64,000 nucleotides of DNA, taken from positions 434,001-498,000 of the forward strand of contig NZ_JAENIK010000013.1 in assembly GCF_016595465.1 (NCBI RefSeq), in the 5' to 3' direction. How positions within the stretch are numbered: the stretch's first letter is position 1; every line of letters begins with the position of its first letter. The translations under genes and the position numbers were made by a program. Positions 3,170 to 12,282 of this stretch are shown piece after piece. The notes beneath the pieces are model-generated. The model was given only the letters and a program-made list of their open reading frames with translations, ran no database searches and was not told where the DNA came from. The DNA comes from Luteolibacter yonseiensis (GTDB lineage Bacteria; Verrucomicrobiota; Verrucomicrobiia; Verrucomicrobiales; Akkermansiaceae).

Positions 3170-6100
3170 TCACCCGAGCATCGATTCCAGTTCGTCCATA
3201 CTCCATCCTGCGGCGTCGCCCGTGCCATTTTCATCGATGGCCGAGGCAAGCTCGCGTTTCTTCGCCTGGAGGCGGACAACCTTCTCCTCGACCGTACCCC
3301 GGGTGAGCAAGCGGTAAACCGTCACCGGGCGGGTCTGCCCGATCCGGTGGGCACGATCGGTCGCCTGGGCTTCCGCAGCCGGATTCCACCATGGGTCGAA
3401 GTGAACGACCGTATCCGCCGCCGTAAGATTCAAGCCATACCCGCCGGCCTTGAGACTGATGAGGAAGACAGGCGGGCCATCCGGCTGCTGGAACCGGTCG
3501 ACCAGTTGCTGGCGGTTCCGGGTCCGGCCGTCGAGCCGCAGGCAGTCCCAACCTCGCTCGGAAACGCATTTTTCTATCTCCTGCAGTTGGGTCTGGAATT
3601 GGCTGAAGACGAGCATCCGGTGGTTGCCGTTAACAGCTTCTTCGATCAGTTCCAGCAAACGGCTGAGCTTGGCCGAACGCCGGGGAACCAGCAACTGGTT
3701 GAATCGATCGTTTTTGAGCAGCGCCAGATCGCAGCACGTCTGCCGCAGGCGGAGCAACGCGGTGAGCATCTGCATCCGAGCGGCCCCCTTGTTGCCCGAA
3801 TCCGCGACGGCATCGACACGCTTGCGCCCCTCGACCAGCAACTCTTTGTAAACCCCCTGTTGGTCCGGGCTCAGATCGCAGAACTCGTCAATGAAGAGCT
3901 TCGAAGGCAGTTCGGGAGCGACCTCCTCCTTCGTCCGACGTAGCAGGAAGGGTGAAATCTTCAGCCGGAGCCGCTCGATGACCGCACCAGAAGATTCACC
4001 AACAAGAAGCGGCTGCTCGTAACGATCCTTGAAATCCTCGCGGCTCCCCAGCCAACCCGGCTGTACGAAGCGGAAGATGGACCACAGGTCTTTGACGCCG
4101 TTTTCGATCGGCGTCCCTGTCAAAGCGACCCTGCTGGTGGCGCTGAGTTTTGAGATCGCCTTGGCGTGATCCGTGTCCGGATTTCTCATCAAGCTGGCTT
4201 CATCCACCACCACGGCACGATACTCCCGTTTCAAATGATAAGCCAGATCCCTCGGCAGCGTACCGTAGCTGGTAAGGATCACATCGCCGGATTGAACCCG
4301 CTCACGCTCCGCATCCCGACCCGCCCCATGCAGGATTCTCACCTTCCTCGCCGGAGCAAACTTCCCAAATTCCGCACGCCAGTTGCCAAGCAGCGAGGCC
4401 GTCGCGACCACCATTACAACACCTGAATCATTCGTTCCATCCTGAAACAATCGCTCAATTAAAGCGATTGTTTGAACCGTCTTTCCCAACCCCATGTCAT
4501 CCGCGAGGAGCGCGCCACCGAAGCGCCGGACGCGATCGTGCATCCAACCGGCTCCATGCGTTTGATACGCCCGTAATTCAGCCCGCAATGTCGCAGGAAA
4601 ATCGAATGAAAAATTGTCCCCTCCATTATTATCATTCTGAGCCTTGTTGATTTTATTACGGATTTCACGAATCAGCTCACCGGAGCGCGCCGACGCGATG
4701 AAACGACCGTTTTCCTGCCGCAAATCCATGTCAGAAAACAGAGGGTCGATTACATTCGCAATATCGTCTGAAACGATCAGACGACGTTCGCCCGCCTGCT
4801 TTGTTCCCGCGCCCGCACGCAGCAAACGGCGCACCTCCCCAGCGGGAATCGAAACGCCATCAGTTGTTTGAAACGACAAATCAAAACTCAGCCAATCCTC
4901 ACCTGAGCCCAGGATCTCGATCTTCGGTGAAACGATGGCCACCTGCTTCTGCACGTGATTGAAACGCTCCCCTTCCGTGACCGTCCACTCGCTCCGCAGG
5001 CGGGGAAGTGTCTTGGTGAGAAAGTCGAGAATCGCAGGCTCCCCCTTCATCACCCAACGACCGCTTGAAAAATTCTCCACCGCGAATCCGGCTTTCATCA
5101 TGCGGCTGGCCGCTTGCTCTTCCTTCACCAGATCGCGGACTTCGCACTGATCGGCGATGAGTCTGGGCAGCCCATTCACTTTTCCCAAACCCGGCGGCAC
5201 CGGTTCCGCATTGCCATAACCTACGGATAACTGAGCCTCCAAATGCTGGAGCGACCCCTCCAACAAAAGATTGAAATGAGCGTTAGCGGGAATGAAATGG
5301 AGCTGGTTCAACCAAGATCCTTCCGGAAAATGAAGCCACTCCTGCCATGAGTCGAGGTGGTTGAAAAACCGTTGAATGGGGATTTCCACTGATTTTCCGC
5401 GAGCCAGATCGGAGAAGGCTGTGGCGAGATCCGACGGCAGGCTTCCCTCGCCCACTCTCGTCACGGAGCTTTCCGTGATCTGCCAGAAGGAGCCTCCGAT
5501 CTCGGTCCAAGTGCCCGCCGCCGGGTCCGGCACGAGATGGATCTGATCCCCCCGATGGTCGGCGGAGATGAGTTGGAGCCGTTCACCGGAACGAATCTGG
5601 ATGACAAGCCTGTCCTTCCCTGCCGCCAGGCGGGGATGCTCTGCGATGGATTCGAGGAAAGCCGGCACACGCGGGCCGTCCAGGTTCAGGCTGAGGATCG
5701 GTTTCTGAGCGACGCCTTCCTTGCCTAACCATGCGTTCAGCCGGTCGTCCGCCGGAGAAATTTCCTCGCCTGCCGCGGTGGCGAGGGTGGCGGCGAATTT
5801 TCCACGAGCCAGGGCTTCCCGCCAGTTGAGAGGTAGCAGGATCTGCCAAGGCACGGAGGCTGCGGGTGGCGAGGCCGCTGACTTTTGAACACTCGTTTGA
5901 ACCGGCTTGACCGGAGCGGCAGGCTTCAGGGTCGCCAGACCGGTGGCGACGGCGTGCGCACAGAAGGAACCGGAGCGCTGGTTGTCCGAGCACGGGCATG
6001 TCGTGTCGAGATAGGTCGGGGATTTCACGATGACGCTGACCTTCATCAGCCGCTTGCCCATGCGGACCGTCCCCTGCCAGCCGTTGCCGCCGGCCTTCAC

Positions 6101-6274: not shown

Positions 6275-6808
6275 TTATTGGACCTGGATCGCGGTGGCGT
6301 TCACGACGAGCGAATCCGGAGAGGATCCTTCGGCGACCTTGCCGGTCACCGTGACGGTTCCGAGCTTTTTCAAGCCGTTCACCCCTTCGATCTCCTGCTT
6401 CAGGACGCGGCCATCCGCACCGACCACCTGGACCGTCGCGAGCGCCACGAGTTTTTCCTCCTTCGTGTTGCAACAGCTGTCCCAAGGTGTTTCACACTTG
6501 TCATCGGGATTCTCGTTGCAAGCCTTCAGGATGGTTGGGTCACCCAAGGTGAATGCGGCCCGCCCGCCGACGAAAGGGGATTCCGTGCCGATGACACGGC
6601 CTGACAACGTGACCTCGTCGCCCGGTTTCGCGGTGGTGCGGGCGATGTGGATCAGCTTCGCCTCCCCTTTCGGACTGGCGGCGAAAACCGCTTGAAGTTC
6701 GGAGCTTGGGGCGCTGGCGGAGGCTGTCGTGGCCGGGGTGGTGGTTTCCTTCTCCCCGCAGGAGACGAGCAGGCAGGATGCGGCGAGGATGAGATGGAGC
6801 GGTTTCAT
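6275..6808 (-). CDS. Cys-rich lipoprotein, last gene of the ABC export operon
   Basis: A 177-residue lipoprotein with lipobox LVSC (Cys17). After a Thr/Ala/Ser-rich linker comes a domain of roughly 120 residues with alternating beta-type segments (KPGDEVTLSGRVIG, TVTVTGKV), which looks OB-fold-like by eye. Inserted in it is a cysteine loop, with Cys97, Cys105 and the pair Cys112/Cys113 around NPDDKCETPWD. The start is 32 bases downstream of the permease stop, so it is probably co-transcribed. I do not recognise a named function. The cysteines could be disulfides or a metal site. Confidence 0.8.
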   Translation of the reverse strand: MKPLHLILAASCLLVSCGEKETTTPATTASASAPSSELQAVFAASPKGEAKLIHIARTTAKPGDEVTLSGRVIGTESPFVGGRAAFTLGDPTILKACNENPDDKCETPWDSCCNTKEEKLVALATVQVVGADGRVLKQEIEGVNGLKKLGTVTVTGKVAEGSSPDSLVVNATAIQVQ

Positions 6809-6839
6809 GGTGTTGGTTACGGTTTGGTTCGTGTGATTT

Positions 6840-7991
6840 TCAGGAAGAACGGAGAGCGGTGGGAAGCGCTGGTTTCAGGCAGCGGATGGCCGGAGGAAGC
6901 GTGCCGACCAAACCGAGGAGGACTCCGGTGGCAATGCCCGTCAGTGCGACCGCTGGACTGATTTCCAAAGTGAAGGCACCGATGGAAAAAGGAATCGTCA
7001 GGCCATCCAGCAGCAGCAGGGCGATGACGGAAGCCACCAGCGTGCCGATCAGACATGCCAGCGTGCTCTCCTGGATCAGGCTCAGGAGCAGGGACCCTTT
7101 CCCGAACCCGATGGCCTGGAGGGTCGCCATCTCCCGCACCCGCGAGGCGAAGGCGGCGTAAAGCGTGTTGATTCCCCCGAACAACGCCCCCGCCGCGATC
7201 AGGCCGGCGGTGATCCATGTCATGGCCCGCAACGGTTTGAAAAATGCCGTCAACCGGGCATAGTAGTCGCTTTCCTTGAGAGCGCTGAGTTCCAGATCCA
7301 GCCGCTGCTTGGTGAAAAGCTCCGCTTCCTCGAAATCCGCCGGGTTGTCCAAACGGATGGCGATGCAGGAGACGGTATCGCGTTTGGCAAGCACCCGCAG
7401 ATCCCCGAGGGTGGCCCACACTTCGGATTCCAGCACGGTGCCCGGTGCGGCGAATATGCCCGAGACCCTCATCTTCTGGCCGTCGAGCTCCACCCCGGTG
7501 CCGGTTTTCAGGGCCTCCTCCGGCATCCCGAGTTTCCGCCAGGCGAGCTCTCCCACCATGATCTCCCCTGCGGCGGGGAAATTTCCCTCGATCACCCGCA
7601 CCTCCGGGTGGACGCGCAGCGCCTGGTGGGTCACACCACGGAACAAGGCCTGGCCCCGGCGGCCATCATCCAAAGTCAGGTAGTTCATGTAATGGATTTC
7701 GCTGGAAACCGCGCGCACTCCCAGATGTTGGGAAATGCCGGGCACCCCGGCCTCCGCGATGCCGGCGGTCCTGTCCGCCACCTCGCTGCGCTGGATGCTT
7801 TCCTCGGAACCGGCCCCGATGAGGATGACATTGTGCGGCGAGCCGGAAGCGGAGAGCACCCGCTTCATGCCCGTGTTCACCGCGACGGCGGTCATGACGA
7901 GCAGGACGACCAGCGCGCTTCCGCCGATGGTTTGCGCGAGGCGCGTCTTTGATCGGAAAAGATTCCGGATGGCATAGGTGAATGGTAGCAT
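6840..7991 (-). CDS. ABC transporter permease, FtsX/MacB type (second permease)
   Basis: The 383-residue permease starts MLPFTYAIRNLFRSKTR; the ATG at 7989-7991 is preferred because it follows the previous stop by five bases, whereas earlier starts lie inside that gene. The order is a cytoplasmic N-terminus, TM1 (about 20-42), a large periplasmic MacB-type core domain, then three TMs in the last 130 residues. Each permease of the pair contributes half of a heterodimeric channel fed by the ATPase at 9142-9825. Type VII ABC systems of this kind move lipoproteins, peptides or drugs from the periplasmic side rather than across the inner membrane. Confidence 0.9.
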   Translation of the reverse strand: MLPFTYAIRNLFRSKTRLAQTIGGSALVVLLVMTAVAVNTGMKRVLSASGSPHNVILIGAGSEESIQRSEVADRTAGIAEAGVPGISQHLGVRAVSSEIHYMNYLTLDDGRRGQALFRGVTHQALRVHPEVRVIEGNFPAAGEIMVGELAWRKLGMPEEALKTGTGVELDGQKMRVSGIFAAPGTVLESEVWATLGDLRVLAKRDTVSCIAIRLDNPADFEEAELFTKQRLDLELSALKESDYYARLTAFFKPLRAMTWITAGLIAAGALFGGINTLYAAFASRVREMATLQAIGFGKGSLLLSLIQESTLACLIGTLVASVIALLLLDGLTIPFSIGAFTLEISPAVALTGIATGVLLGLVGTLPPAIRCLKPALPTALRSS

Positions 7992-7996
7992 TCCGG

Positions 7997-9145
7997 TCAG
8001 TTGCGTAGGTTTTTGACAATGGGCTGGCTCATGGCCTGCCACGCGGGCCAGAGGGATGCGAAGATCCCCAATGCCAGTGCGGCGGAGATGCCGGCGACGA
8101 CGACAAAGGCGTCCGGCTGGATGGCCAGCGTCTGCCCTTCATTCCCGAGCGTGAAGCTCTGCCACTTGAGGAATCCCGAGGCCAGACCGACGCCGGCGAA
8201 TCCGCCGATGAGTCCCAGCATCCCGCCCTCCCCCAAAACCAGGGTGCCGATGGCCCTGCCCGGATAACCCAATGTGCGGAGCACCGCGTTTTCCTTCACC
8301 CGTCCCCGCACGATGAGGAGCAGGGAATTGGCGACAAGGGCACCCACGGCCACGACGGCACCGAAGCCGAGCCAGCGGGTGAAACCGATCAGCTCGATCA
8401 ACTCGGCGGCCGTTTCCGCGAAGAAAGCCTTCTCTGGCCGCGTGTCGGTTGGCGCCTGGTCGGAATGGAACCGCTCGTCGATGGCTTTTGAAACGGGTTT
8501 CAGGTCCTTCGAGGAATCCACGCGGACATTGAACTGCGTGACCACTCCGAGCCCCGTCTTCGACGCCTGCTGGAGAAACGGCAGTTTCACATACGCCACG
8601 TTGTTGTCCTGGGCGAAGGGAGAGCGGATGATGCCGGACACCGTGACGGCCACCCCCGCGGCATCGAAACGATCACCGGGTTTCAATCCCCTCCGGGCGG
8701 CGAAAACCTCGCCCAACAGGGCGCCGTCATCCCGGTCACTCCATGCCTCCTCGCTGCCGCCGACGATTTTGATTTCCGGAGCGAATTTTTTCAGCAGGCC
8801 GTCCGGCACACCACGGAAGGTGATGACGTCGAGGGATGCGCCGCAATTGTTGACGACGATCTGCACCGGCACCACCTCCCGCACCCCCGGGATGCGGCGG
8901 ATCTCATCCGCGTAATGTTCCGGCAGGCGGCTGGTCGAGGGGCAGTAGCGGTTCTGGCGGTAGACCACCAGAGTGGTATCCGCCGCCGTCGCCTCCGTGG
9001 CCTTTGCAAGCGATCGCTGGAGGGTTTCCACGGCCGTGAACAAAAACATGCCGGACGCCACCCCGAGGACGGTGAGCACAGAACGCACCCGGTGGCGGGT
9101 CAGTTGGATCCACGACAGGCGCAACAGATTCAGGAACGCTCTCAT
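7997..9145 (-). CDS. ABC transporter permease, FtsX/MacB type (first permease)
   Basis: The 382-residue protein starts [24 protein letters not shown]1 is at about 22-42, followed by a periplasmic core domain, with three C-terminal TMs (GAVVAVGALVANSLLL, GGMLGLIGGFAGVGL, VVVAGISAALALGIF). Its ATG overlaps the stop of the upstream ATPase gene by four bases (ATGA), a sign of translational coupling. It is a paralogue of the next gene, which suggests a heterodimeric Lol-type assembly rather than a MacB homodimer. The periplasmic region contains a Cys pair (Cys at RYCPS and NNCGAS). Confidence 0.9.
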   Translation of the reverse strand: MRAFLNLLRLSWIQLTRHRVRSVLTVLGVASGMFLFTAVETLQRSLAKATEATAADTTLVVYRQNRYCPSTSRLPEHYADEIRRIPGVREVVPVQIVVNNCGASLDVITFRGVPDGLLKKFAPEIKIVGGSEEAWSDRDDGALLGEVFAARRGLKPGDRFDAAGVAVTVSGIIRSPFAQDNNVAYVKLPFLQQASKTGLGVVTQFNVRVDSSKDLKPVSKAIDERFHSDQAPTDTRPEKAFFAETAAELIELIGFTRWLGFGAVVAVGALVANSLLLIVRGRVKENAVLRTLGYPGRAIGTLVLGEGGMLGLIGGFAGVGLASGFLKWQSFTLGNEGQTLAIQPDAFVVVAGISAALALGIFASLWPAWQAMSQPIVKNLRN

Positions 9146-9825
9146 GACTGTTCGAGGAGTTGGCCTTTCTCAAGGTGGAGCGTGCGGTCCGCGGCGGCGG
9201 CGGCTCGCGGGTCGTGGGTGACCATGACGATGGTCTTGCCAAGGTCGCGGGTGAGCGCGCGCAGCAGATCGAGGATTTTCGTCGCGGAATCGCGGTCCAG
9301 GTCGCCGGTGGGTTCGTCCGCGACCAGCAGCGGCGGATCCGCGACCAGGGCGCGCGCGATGGCCACGCGTTGCTCCTGCCCGCCGGACAGTTCGCCCGGC
9401 GTGTGGTGCATGCGGTCCTCGAGGCCGACGAGCGTGAGCGCGGTTTCCACCCGCTCCCGGCGCTCTTTTTTCGAGAGCGTGCCGAGCAGCAGCGGCAGTT
9501 CGACATTTTCAAACGCGGTCAACACCGGAACCAGGTGATACAATTGGAAAATGTAGCCCACGTGCCCGGCCCGCCACCGGGTCAGGTCGCGCTGCGAGAG
9601 TTTCGCCAGTTCGCTTCCGGCGATCACCAGCGATCCCGCCGTCGGCGAATCAATGCCGGAAAGCAGGTTCAGCAGGGTTGTTTTTCCCGAACCGGAAGGC
9701 CCCATCAGGGCGAGGAACTCGCCCTTCGGCACGTCCAGATCAAGGGCTTCGAGAGGAGTCACCACGGTGCTGCCCTTGCGGTAGCTCTTGGAGACTCCAC
9801 GGCATTGGATCATTGTTTCACTCAT
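9142..9825 (-). CDS. ABC transporter ATP-binding protein (LolD/MacB family)
   Basis: A 227-residue nucleotide-binding subunit. It shows Walker A GPSGSGKT (42-49), a Q-loop at [10 protein letters not shown], the signature [15 protein letters not shown], Walker [13 protein letters not shown] and an H-loop THD. The LVP following the Q-loop and the PTGDLD Walker B are typical of the MacB/LolD branch. The start at 9825 (MSETMIQ) overlaps the stop of the membrane-fusion gene by four bases, so the export genes are translationally coupled. It powers the two permeases encoded immediately downstream. Confidence 0.95.
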
Positions 9826-11228
9826 GGTTGGATCAGGTTGGGGTTCACTCTCTGGCCGTCGCGCAGGCCCTGCGCGGCCATCACGACCCACTCTCCGGGT
9901 TTGATTCCTTCCGAAACCCGGCGGTAACCTTCCCGTGTGTCGGACGTGGTGGCAGCGGTCCGGCCCTCCACCCGTTTGGTGCGGGGGTCGCAGATCCAGA
10001 CCTTGCCGCCGCTGATGGATTTTTCAGGAACCCACATCGACAGCGTGCCACCGGCGACAGGAGCGGAAGAAGAAGAAGAAGCCGCCACCACAGGCGGTGC
10101 GAGAAACTCGGCCCGGCAAAGCATTTCCGGCCTGAGGATATCCACGGGGTCGAGGATCCTGACCTTCGCCTGCAGGGTGTTCCGCTGCAGGTCCGCCTGC
10201 CCCGTGATGACGGTCACTTCTCCACGGAACACGCGTTCGGGAAGCAGGCTGCAGTGGATCTTCGCGGGCTGGCCCACCTGAAGCCCGGCGGCGTCGGCCA
10301 ATGGCACATCCACCCTCACCTGGAGCTTCCCGGGGTCGTATAAGATGGCGACGGTCGAGCTGTCCGCCTCGTCCATCGACAGCATGCGTTTGTCACCCGG
10401 AGCGACGGCCAGCCGCAGCACCCGTCCGGAAATGGGTGCGGCAATGCGGGTCCGGTCCAGCGCCAGACGAGCCTTTTCCACCTCGATGGCCGCCGCGGCG
10501 ATCCCGTCATCCTTGACCTGCGTCTCCATCTCCAGGCGGGCGATGTCGGCGGCAATTTCGTCCGCCCCCGTCTCCACCATCGACCTCTGCGCCTGCTCAC
10601 GGGCGAGCCGGAGTCTGGCGGAAACCACATCACTCCGGCTCACCGCCCCTTCCGGCAGCCGTTCCACCCTCCCGAACTGGTCGGCGGCCTCGTCCTCCAA
10701 AGTCCGGGCCGCCTCGATCGCGGCCCGCGCGGAAGCCAGTTTTTTCCGGACGGTGAGGATGATCCCCAAATGGCTGGCATGGGAGGAAACCGCCATCCGG
10801 TGGTTCTGCTCCGCAGCCCTGAGCGCGAGCCGCGCGTCGTCCGCGACCAGGGTCGCAAGCAAATCACCTTTCTTCACGGTCTGCCCCTCCAGCACGTTCA
10901 CCGAATCCACCACCCCGTCGATAAGGGCGGTGGCCTTGGTCGGGAGCGGATCGGGCTCGATCCAGCCGCTCGCTTGGAAAAGCATCGGTCCGGACGCGGA
11001 TGGGGCGGCTTGCGTCCGCACGGCGGCGGGTGCCTCGGCCCCCCCCGGTGTGGTGAGGACAATCGCCACATCCACATCCCTGGCCGGCAGCAACCGGTCC
11101 CGGAACAGGGCGAGGAAAATGAGAAGGAAGCCGAAGGCGATGGCCAGGGGCAGCAGCCATGCCGGGGACCGTCGGGAGGGTGCGCGCGGGTCATTCGGAC
11201 GCGCCAGCGATTCTAAAGTGGAATTCAT
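9822..11228 (-). CDS. Periplasmic adaptor (membrane fusion protein, MacA/HlyD family)
   Basis: This 468-residue protein has one N-terminal membrane anchor (about 24-42), a split biotinyl-lipoyl domain (TALIDGVVDSVNVLEGQTVKKGD and RIAAPISGRVLRLAVAPGD), an intervening helical hairpin of about 130 residues, then beta-barrel and membrane-proximal domains. It would link the ABC complex to the outer membrane or to a substrate-delivery partner. It stands first of four overlapping genes (adaptor, ATPase, two permeases), preceded by the Cys/His-rich protein 105 bases upstream. No TolC-like outer-membrane gene is present in the window. Confidence 0.93.
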   Translation of the reverse strand: MNSTLESLARPNDPRAPSRRSPAWLLPLAIAFGFLLIFLALFRDRLLPARDVDVAIVLTTPGGAEAPAAVRTQAAPSASGPMLFQASGWIEPDPLPTKATALIDGVVDSVNVLEGQTVKKGDLLATLVADDARLALRAAEQNHRMAVSSHASHLGIILTVRKKLASARAAIEAARTLEDEAADQFGRVERLPEGAVSRSDVVSARLRLAREQAQRSMVETGADEIAADIARLEMETQVKDDGIAAAAIEVEKARLALDRTRIAAPISGRVLRLAVAPGDKRMLSMDEADSSTVAILYDPGKLQVRVDVPLADAAGLQVGQPAKIHCSLLPERVFRGEVTVITGQADLQRNTLQAKVRILDPVDILRPEMLCRAEFLAPPVVAASSSSSAPVAGGTLSMWVPEKSISGGKVWICDPRTKRVEGRTAATTSDTREGYRRVSEGIKPGEWVVMAAQGLRDGQRVNPNLIQP

Positions 11229-11333
11229 TGTTTATCATGCGGAAATCAGAGGAAAAAGGCATGCCTTTGGAAAAAGACATGCCACAAATGACCACCGGGA
11301 ACAGGCAGCCACCAGTGGTGCGGCTGCACCACC

Positions 11334-11738
11334 TCAAATCCTCCAAACCGCCAGCAGGGCGCGACGGCATCCCTGCGGATCCGGCCCACGGATGGGGGCC
11401 GAAGGATGGAAAACCGCGCCCGCCACGAACCAGACAGCCGGTCCTGCGGAAACAAGCGGTGGCAGATCCACCACCGCCATGTCCGGCATCTCGACATGCC
11501 AGTCCGGCAGGGTCGAATCCGGCACGCTCTTCAGCTCCGCGCAGCATTCCTCATGCTGGTGCGTCTCGCACTCGTCGCAGCATTCCGATTTCCCGGCCTT
11601 TTTATTGGAAGGGGCCTCTTCGGGAACTCCTGTCTCCAGCAAACAGACACGGATGGGAGACGCCGCCGTCGGAAGCATCGCTCCGAAGCAGACCAGCAAC
11701 AACATTGCCAGAAATTGTCTCACAAGAAAAGAAGTCAC
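11334..11738 (-). CDS. Small exported Cys/His-rich protein heading the export operon
   Basis: A 134-residue protein with a signal peptide (MTSFLVRQFLAMLLLVCFGAMLPTAA). The mature part has a dense cluster SECCDECETHQHEECC (Cys53, 54, 57, 65, 66 with His60 and His62) among acidic residues, followed by a Pro-rich, nonpolar C-terminal half. I know no family for it. The cluster would suit soft-metal binding or multiple disulfides. It reads in the same direction as the adaptor-ABC operon and ends 105 bases before it, so it is probably the first gene. A perfect 13-bp inverted repeat lies 100 bases upstream of its start. Confidence 0.65.
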   Translation of the reverse strand: MTSFLVRQFLAMLLLVCFGAMLPTAASPIRVCLLETGVPEEAPSNKKAGKSECCDECETHQHEECCAELKSVPDSTLPDWHVEMPDMAVVDLPPLVSAGPAVWFVAGAVFHPSAPIRGPDPQGCRRALLAVWRI

Positions 11739-11837
11739 GCTGGTGTGAGATCCGGGTCAAGGGAATATTCCAAAAGCAGGCATCCGAAAAACAACGGATG
11801 TTTTCCGGACATTCGGCAGAACCTCCGGATCCCGGCG

Positions 11838-11876
11838 TTTTCTCAGACCGATCGAATTCTTAGCGGTCTGAGAAAA
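11838..11876. promoter_or_regulatory. Perfect 13-bp inverted repeat upstream of the export operon
   Basis: TTTTCTCAGACCG (11838-11850) and its exact complement CGGTCTGAGAAAA (11864-11876) flank a 13-base spacer. It lies between the end of the gene at 11896 and the start of the gene at 11738. As an RNA hairpin it lacks a proper U tract on the minus strand after the stem, so it could be either a terminator for the upstream gene or an operator for the export operon. Confidence 0.55.
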
Positions 11877-11895
11877 ATCCTCCCGCCCGCACTCC

Positions 11896-12282
11896 TCAGC
11901 GGTTCACGATCTCACCCTTGAGTTCGCTCCAGATGTAGACCGCCTCCCCGGTGCGTTCCTGGCGACTTTCCCACATGAACCAGCCGAGCGACTCGTTCCA
12001 GAAAAGGTTGTAGAAAACCATCTTCCTTGCCTGCGAGGCCCCGTCCCGGACAGGCAGGATCGCCGCCACCCGGCGTACGTGCTTCACCTCGAACCCGTCG
12101 CCACTGCGCTCGCTGCCCTCGACGATGAAGGAGATCTGGATGGTGTTGTCCTGGACGTTCGATTTCATGGAAATCAAACGCACCGCGTCTTTCGGCAGGA
12201 GTTCCTTGGTAGGTTCCGCCGCCATTCCGGTGAGCGATGACATCGCAAACACCCCGACCATCGAGAGTAGGAATTTTCTCAT
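11896..12282 (-). CDS. Exported hypothetical protein
   Basis: A 128-residue protein with a signal peptide (MRKFLLSMVGVFAMSSLTGMAA). The mature domain is probably beta-rich, with many aromatic residues near the C-terminus (NLFWNESLGWFMWES, VYIWSEL). No cysteines and no recognised family. It reads toward the export operon but is separated from it by about 160 bases containing a perfect inverted repeat, so it may be a separate transcript. Confidence 0.6.
   Translation of the reverse strand: MRKFLLSMVGVFAMSSLTGMAAEPTKELLPKDAVRLISMKSNVQDNTIQISFIVEGSERSGDGFEVKHVRRVAAILPVRDGASQARKMVFYNLFWNESLGWFMWESRQERTGEAVYIWSELKGEIVNR

Follow-up and report, generated by a model that had tools for sequence, protein, structure and literature searches.

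A 64,000-nucleotide (nt) stretch of the Luteolibacter yonseiensis genome (contig NZ_JAENIK010000013.1, positions 434,001 to 498,000 of the forward strand; hereafter the window) carries a six-gene operon on its minus strand. On balance, and with modest conviction, we favour the reading that this operon serves efflux of a thiophilic cation, of the copper or zinc group, and that its first gene would encode a leader acting as a nascent-chain sensor. From window position 11738 to 6275, the genes encode a small exported Cys-rich protein (CYS, the leader), a periplasmic adaptor, an ATP-binding cassette (ABC) ATPase, two FtsX-type permeases and a lipoprotein (LIP). A preliminary description, made from the sequence alone, had proposed these six genes in this order; all six were confirmed on the minus strand, and Pfam supports the ABC parts (Table 1). 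Of the ATGA overlaps that it described between the core genes, two are present (adaptor/ATPase and ATPase/permease 1); at the third core junction, 5 nt separate permease 1 from permease 2.

Comparison among related loci supports the operon as a unit. LIP loci were the best 80 of 498 relatives from a scan of named genomes; part of the compared loci come from the same genomes, and sequences identical in their last 60 residues were removed. Adaptor, ATPase, permease 1, permease 2 and LIP genes follow one another in this order at 65 of the 80 loci. At 12 of the remaining 15, permease 2 is present with as many further genes as the contig contains, one of these loci (L142) having a gap of about 1.2 kb before LIP, and at two (L091 and L149) LIP lies at the contig end with no room for the block. 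The five-gene operon is real and recurs beyond chance. By labels read by eye, 78 of the 80 loci belong to Verrucomicrobiota in the wide sense, and the block extends to records labelled Kiritimatiellia and Lentisphaerae. Since the loci are the best 80 of 498, the operon may also occur in further phyla. Among 99 genomes from the genus and order of the window, 43 have LIP; a phylum-wide draw of 387 genomes gave LIP in 52 and a profile match to CYS in 27 (the window's own genome is counted each time). The window's genome has one LIP copy, and a search of plasmids for LIP gave zero matches. At 24 of the 80 loci LIP is followed within 450 nt by an outer-membrane efflux gene (the one tested is a Pfam OEP protein), so the operon probably encodes a tripartite exporter with a LolCDE-like core and a heterodimeric permease.

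Two observations on the distribution of the block should also be recorded. A locus labelled Longimicrobiales (L125) has the full block (adaptor 38% identity), reflecting either transfer or a mis-binned contig. LIP homologues of 33-34% identity occur in genus g21 of the window's family (L188:2210-2728, minus strand, and L189:2274-2738), with no ABC gene matches in the 12.5 kb (L188) and 5 kb (L189) examined around them.

CYS precedes the adaptor at 60 of the 63 loci with enough sequence, one of the 60 being doubtful. Candidates were found with a script that filters on a hydrophobic N-terminus and on Cys/His count, no signal-peptide program being used; it flagged 61 of the 63 loci. Profile matches to the leader on contigs without LIP (G044, G056 and G025) likewise adjoin an adaptor. 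With the block and leader counts, the Cys-rich genes are found to be conserved beside the ABC genes in relatives, the point on which the preliminary description had staked its proposal. Its statement that neither Cys-rich protein is recognisable also holds, as none reaches a Pfam or NCBIfam cutoff; the window CYS has a weak Pfam match to DUF4567 (E 0.0037, 17.9 versus 27 bits). The Cys/His cluster given as CCDEC-x-H-x-H-x-CC is present in the window leader, with a different exact spacing, CCDEC-ET-H-Q-H-EE-CC. Translation may begin at an in-frame GTG at 11723, where the profile match begins.

The anatomy of the leader is distinctive. Across 73 leader sequences, the distance from the last cluster Cys to the C-terminus has a median of 69 residues and a standard deviation (SD) of 3.3, compared with an SD of 11.0 for total length. 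The cluster Cys was sought 55-90 residues from the end, a range that by itself limits the SD to about 10; the tightening is real, yet it is partly framed by how the Cys was defined. The linker that joins cluster to tail varies little in length, although its sequence is close to random (ungapped identity 8.6% across 40 positions); among three stretches compared, conservation is highest in the last 20 residues (20%). The C-terminal residue is I, L or V in 69 of 73 leaders, the third-last is L, W, F or Y in 69 of 73, and R-[AGDS]-[PS]-[PTSDC] occurs in the last 35 residues of 40. The ratio of nonsynonymous to synonymous substitution (dN/dS) is 0.16-0.50 in all 13 close pairs (>55% identity), and judging from these pairs CYS is fast-evolving and under purifying selection. 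One candidate without the tail (L125) was excluded from alignment A6 and included among the 73.

Two leader genes appear to be broken. A frameshift splits the gene at about 4620-5000 of L066, as either a real change or a sequencing error; L112, which has the same length and a frameshifted leader, is probably the same contig. The script match at L126 is false: three-frame reading finds the leader tail and no intact front. That tail, RGSPPP...VRYSVFLV at about 5100-5300, may belong to a gene that is decayed, rearranged or poorly sequenced.

The RNA between leader and adaptor is structured. This gap is 105 nt long in the window and has a median of 98.5 nt at 72 loci. Relative to shuffles, its folding has a mean z of -2.56, with 66% of values below -2 (65 loci), compared with mean z of -0.23 and -0.36 for coding controls from the same loci (64 each). 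Since broad alignments of the gaps gave zero common pairs, pairing was assessed by permuting 5' and 3' segments between loci. The initial tests covered 65 of the 72 gaps, those of 75-155 nt with codons, and a scan covered 54 loci, after a length cut (62 left) and removal of 8 close relatives. The 20 nt from the CYS stop codon pair better with the last 60 nt before the adaptor of their own locus than with those of others, which 0 of 5,000 permutations matched, odds that are optimistic because related loci are treated as independent. In the scan, the strongest pairing with the 50 nt that precede the adaptor was that of the stop-codon window (z -6.7, 0 of 2,000 permutations; n = 54). The signal is confined to windows starting at -20, -10 and 0 from the stop (z -4.0, -5.5 and -6.7), the other 13 of 16 lying within z 2.0, and most 3' strands of the helix fall roughly between -26 and -11 relative to the adaptor start. 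No such pairing was seen between the 5' end and the adaptor gene (reached by 1,487 of 2,000 permutations) or the leader gene (1,977 of 2,000), and pairing of leader positions -60 to -40 with the gap end was reached by 135 of 2,000. An Rfam search of window positions 11150-11900 returned a single chance-level match (15.7 versus a gathering score of 40).

The relation to metal comes from where else the leader family is found. A CYS profile detects a second copy in the window's genome (E 2e-22); 64 nt separate it from a downstream outer-membrane efflux gene, behind which stands a CusA/CzcA gene. The profile has 16 matches outside the ABC operon, 15 of which have CYS anatomy at least partly; the L185 match is without it and was rejected as a paralogue. 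A gene of the resistance-nodulation-division (RND) type lies downstream of 14 of the 15 paralogues, and at L187 the contig ends after one open reading frame (ORF). As in the ABC operon, the paralogues directly precede the next pump gene. The usual tail end is missing from paralogue L197, and C is the final residue of three others (two in L194, one in L195). Of the 14 RND proteins, nine are above the TIGR00914 CusA/CzcA cutoff, and other genera of the window's family (g21 and g24) also carry the leader family before RND genes. One locus also encodes a P-type ATPase that passes the cutoff of the cadmium family and narrowly misses that of the copper family. In addition, a CusA/CzcA-like RND gene lies within 10 kb of the ABC operon at 8 of the 80 loci, and the two tested exceed the TIGR00914 cutoff. 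The seven better of these neighbours carry the motif AxGxxxDxxxxxxEN in transmembrane helix 4 (TM4), which we take to be the Cu/Ag type. In heavy-metal efflux RND pumps, the TM4 class AxG goes with monovalent and DFG with divalent cations. Metal export by the operon is well supported by these comparisons of gene content, and copper would be a fair guess as the exported metal, which could also be one of the zinc group. The metal half of the earlier proposal of metal or redox export is thus upheld by the CYS family standing before CusA/CzcA-type genes, and we found no evidence for the redox or thiol half.

The window's own genome holds one further arrangement of this sort. A small ORF at L153 (reversed coordinates 10573-10938), Cys/His-rich but distinct from the leader and with ERPPRN at its end, precedes outer-membrane-efflux-like and RND-like genes, and is perhaps a second leader type.

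Cysteines are also a constant feature of the pump genes. The four LIP cysteines noted in the preliminary description were correctly placed, and 81 of 81 LIP sequences have all of them; permease 1 likewise keeps C68 and C101 in 82 of 82. An AlphaFold2 model of LIP predicts an oligonucleotide/oligosaccharide-binding (OB) fold, with a mean predicted local distance difference test (pLDDT) score of 88.4. In a Foldseek search of the PDB, periplasmic YgiW ranked first (E 4e-3), with nothing below 0.001. VIA-align gave Z 8.1 over 83-86 residues for both YgiW and CcmE and about 8-9 for many OB-folds, minichromosome maintenance (MCM) N-terminal domains included, and a Z near 8 is by itself no proof of relationship. 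Sequence profiles of LIP matched zero Pfam families and a single NCBIfam family at E 0.62, and a sequence search of solved structures gave just two matches, at E about 1; a match to CcmE was absent from all three. The predicted fold would be shared with the periplasmic OB-fold proteins YgiW (BOF) and CcmE, from which LIP differs in its Cys4 stretch CxTPWDxCC and its lack of a Pfam or NCBIfam sequence match.

We propose the following mechanism. An ATPase dimer, the two dissimilar FtsX-type permeases and the adaptor would assemble into a machine of the MacAB/LolCDE type that, together with an outer-membrane efflux channel, would drive metal out of the periplasm. The OB-fold LIP would pass metal to the pump via its four cysteines, and the two invariant cysteines of permease 1 may accept it. 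The first gene would encode a leader peptide and no part of the pump. During its synthesis the leader would thread SecYEG, and the Cys/His cluster, about 69 residues from the C-terminus, would reach the periplasm. Metal on the cluster would hold the ribosome at the conserved C-terminal end; the held ribosome would open the RNA helix between the stop-codon region and the sequence upstream of the adaptor start, with a rise in pump synthesis. Metal binding, stalling, the direction of the switch, transport and the identity of the metal are steps that we infer from the compared loci.

Known sensors of this kind resemble CYS in outline. In Rhodobacter capsulatus, binding of Cu to nascent exported CutF slows its export, and a stem-loop that covers the next gene is opened (PMC9973294). 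CutF (cutFOG; DUF2946), like CYS, is a small Sec-exported Cys protein with a conserved C-terminus that is encoded before metal genes, and in both cases an RNA structure covers the start region of the next gene (PMC9973294). In Bordetella, CruR senses copper via CXXC and RAPP motifs that must be a set distance apart, and in Bordetella pertussis it acts on a TonB receptor operon through Rho (PMC9426467). CruR (DUF2946) would share with CYS a nascent leader with a Cys motif, a RAPP motif and a spacing (PMC9426467). RAPP/RGPP peptides have been found upstream of metal genes (PMC12992588). CYS has the corresponding features: it appears exported (hydrophobic N-terminus), has a Cys/His cluster at a fixed distance from the C-terminus, stands directly before metal genes and is followed by RNA structure before the next gene. 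In contrast to CutF, with its CxxxC, CYS has a CCxxC...CC-type cluster and its target is an ABC exporter; its Pro-rich motif is mostly 15-18 residues before the end, with a conserved tail after it. By analogy, the spacing, the conserved tail, the position before the pump and the stop-codon RNA point to CYS as likely being a cis-acting metal-sensing leader of the CutF/CruR kind and not a pump part. They make it unlikely that CYS is an envelope partner, as the preliminary description had it.

The ABC genes likewise combine parts of several systems. As in MacAB-TolC and DevBCA, an adaptor and a MacB-type ABC core would work with an outer-membrane channel; unlike MacAB, a single polypeptide with one permease type, the operon has a separate ATPase and two distinct permeases. 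All operon proteins are below the NCBIfam cutoffs for MacA, MacB (at most 215.9 versus 966 bits), DevA (212.5 versus 295.8), DevB (37.2 versus 129) and DevC (29.4 and 14.3 versus 290.35). One ATPase with two different FtsX-type permeases is the layout of LolCDE, and the nearest solved structures to permease 1 by sequence are LolC, then a streptococcal MacB-like permease and LolF. LolCDE has no adaptor, whereas the operon has one, plus the outer-membrane gene at some loci, and its proteins are below the cutoffs for LolD (243.7 versus 307.75 bits) and LolCE (29.3 and 41.8 versus 362.45). The adaptor exceeds the TIGR01730 RND_mfp cutoff (119 versus 94.9 bits). With CusCFBA and CzcCBA the operon shares a metal efflux logic, an HlyD_D23 adaptor and, in Verrucomicrobiota, the leader family, but those are RND pumps and the operon is driven by an ABC ATPase. 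A review of MacB describes LolCDE and DevBCA as heterodimeric and metal export as merely suggested for YbbAP (PMC8277102). A literature search of titles and abstracts of open-licence papers found no description of the operon.

We would put somewhat less than even weight on a broader reading, in which a separate, phylum-wide Verrucomicrobiota family of non-DUF2946 nascent-chain metal sensors, with a 69-residue ruler and a stop-codon helix, controls RND pumps as well as an as yet undescribed metal efflux machine that has an ABC motor and a Cys4 LIP. Were this so, the sensing of metal by an exported protein still being made, so far seen in CutF and CruR, would have a second family in another phylum, unrelated to these in sequence or far diverged from them and controlling an ABC exporter. 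Tripartite metal pumps would then include, besides the RND kind, one powered by an ABC ATPase and equipped with a new Cys4 OB-fold lipoprotein. The fixed spacing and the stop-codon helix would give testable predictions on communication between ribosome, translocon and metal. Roles are thereby suggested for two Verrucomicrobiota protein families that have no Pfam or NCBIfam name.

CYS might instead be a periplasmic metal-binding protein acting in trans, as a CusF-like buffer or chaperone, with the RNA merely a translation-coupling device. At least 4 cysteines after residue 20 in all 73 leaders (the Cys/His count was also part of the script filter), dN/dS below 1 and His-rich forms at two loci (L032 and L033) would suit such a protein. 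The near-random linker of nearly fixed length, the conservation of the last 20 residues above the other stretches and the position directly before the next pump gene at RND loci as well argue against it, and we regard it as rather unlikely. That CYS is itself the exported substrate, a Cys-rich peptide, is highly improbable: it is small, exported and encoded beside an exporter, but its paralogues precede RND pumps, a different transporter class, it has its own Sec-type hydrophobic start, and the tail and RNA features would be left unexplained.

The ABC genes could also have another export substrate (a lipoprotein, a lipid, heme or a thiol compound) and be simply responsive to metal stress. The kinship of permease 1 to LolC and the resemblance of the LIP fold to the heme chaperone CcmE, besides YgiW and many OB-folds, are consistent with this. 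We nevertheless consider it unlikely, as the adaptor and outer-membrane gene suggest expulsion and not lipoprotein sorting, LIP has four invariant cysteines and no sequence match to CcmE, and the leader family elsewhere precedes RND pump genes. For the switch itself, a leader working by transcription attenuation in the manner of TnaC or CruR, and not by opening the adaptor ribosome-binding region, would be compatible with the hairpin and TTTTT in the window gap (hairpin and T-run sites number 4 in the kilobase, compared with 1.0 expected from shuffles) and with the dependence of CruR on Rho (PMC9426467). The T-run hairpin is apparently not general, judged by eye, and the stop-codon pairing mostly reaches the region upstream of the adaptor start that suits translational control; attenuation is accordingly a minority option in our assessment.

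Several results weigh against a metal pump under a nascent-chain leader. Zero of 61 leader family members match the Pfam DUF2946 profile at E <= 1, and membership of that family was rejected. Three of the 63 loci are without an intact leader (L112, L126 and L110, where none was seen). Strict RAPP/RGPP occurs in only 8 of 73 leaders, with RGPD in the window; in CruR, RAPP lies 3 residues from the end. PP within the last 15 residues, which is the leader filter of PMC9973294, is present in 23 of 73 leaders (45 in the last 18), and the window leader has no PP in its tail. RNAalifold found zero common pairs in the two broad MAFFT gap alignments (22 and 13 sequences), which we put down to divergence. 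Formal covariation is weak and confined to small subgroups: 19 pairs in 6 gaps, 10 with both sides changed in some sequence, and 6 pairs in 11 gaps, 3 of that kind. Of three shuffled pairing controls, two were null and one was low (2 of 2,000). The cysteines of LIP and permease 1 could be structural disulfides. No outer-membrane gene adjoins LIP in the window, and one of the 80 loci (L098) has no permease match in the 1.1 kb upstream of LIP. Four g21 RND proteins have TIGR00914 as the sole family listed and are below its cutoff (629-634 versus 701.45 bits), and the L197 RND protein had zero family matches at the threshold used. The RND linkage to the ABC operon stems from few lineages, and the eight neighbours include a weak match (25% identity, half length) and a gene on the opposite strand. 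Finally, the paralogues precede pumps of both AxG and DFG types, so the metal is not fixed by RND linkage.

Table 1. Features of the operon in the window, in the order of transcription (window coordinates).
Feature	Coordinates	Strand	Remarks
Leader gene (CYS), small exported Cys-rich protein	11334..11738	-	GTG start; cluster CCDECxxHxHxxCC; tail IRGPDPQGCRRALLAVWRI
Intergenic RNA between CYS and adaptor	11229..11333	-	Structured; three hairpins
Third hairpin followed by TTTTT, terminator-like	11258..11283	-	Possible attenuator; seen in the window
Periplasmic adaptor	9822..11228	-	HlyD_D23 (Pfam), TIGR01730 RND_mfp
ABC ATPase, LolD/MacB-like	9145..9822	-	ABC_tran (Pfam)
FtsX-type permease 1	7997..9145	-	MacB_PCD and FtsX (Pfam); invariant C68, C101
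FtsX-type permease 2	6840..7991	-	MacB_PCD and FtsX (Pfam)
Lipoprotein (LIP)	6275..6808	-	OB-fold (predicted); invariant C97, C105, C112, C113 (CxTPWDxCC)

A small exported-looking protein is encoded just upstream of the leader (window 11899-12282, minus strand). It has no tblastn match in 40 relative stretches and therefore lies outside the conserved unit. A His-rich small protein recurs in metal RND clusters (L122:18271-18846, L142:4351-4707 and L148:12180-12515); the L122 copy has zero Pfam or NCBIfam matches, and in L142 and L148 the gene lies about 1.65 kb after LIP.

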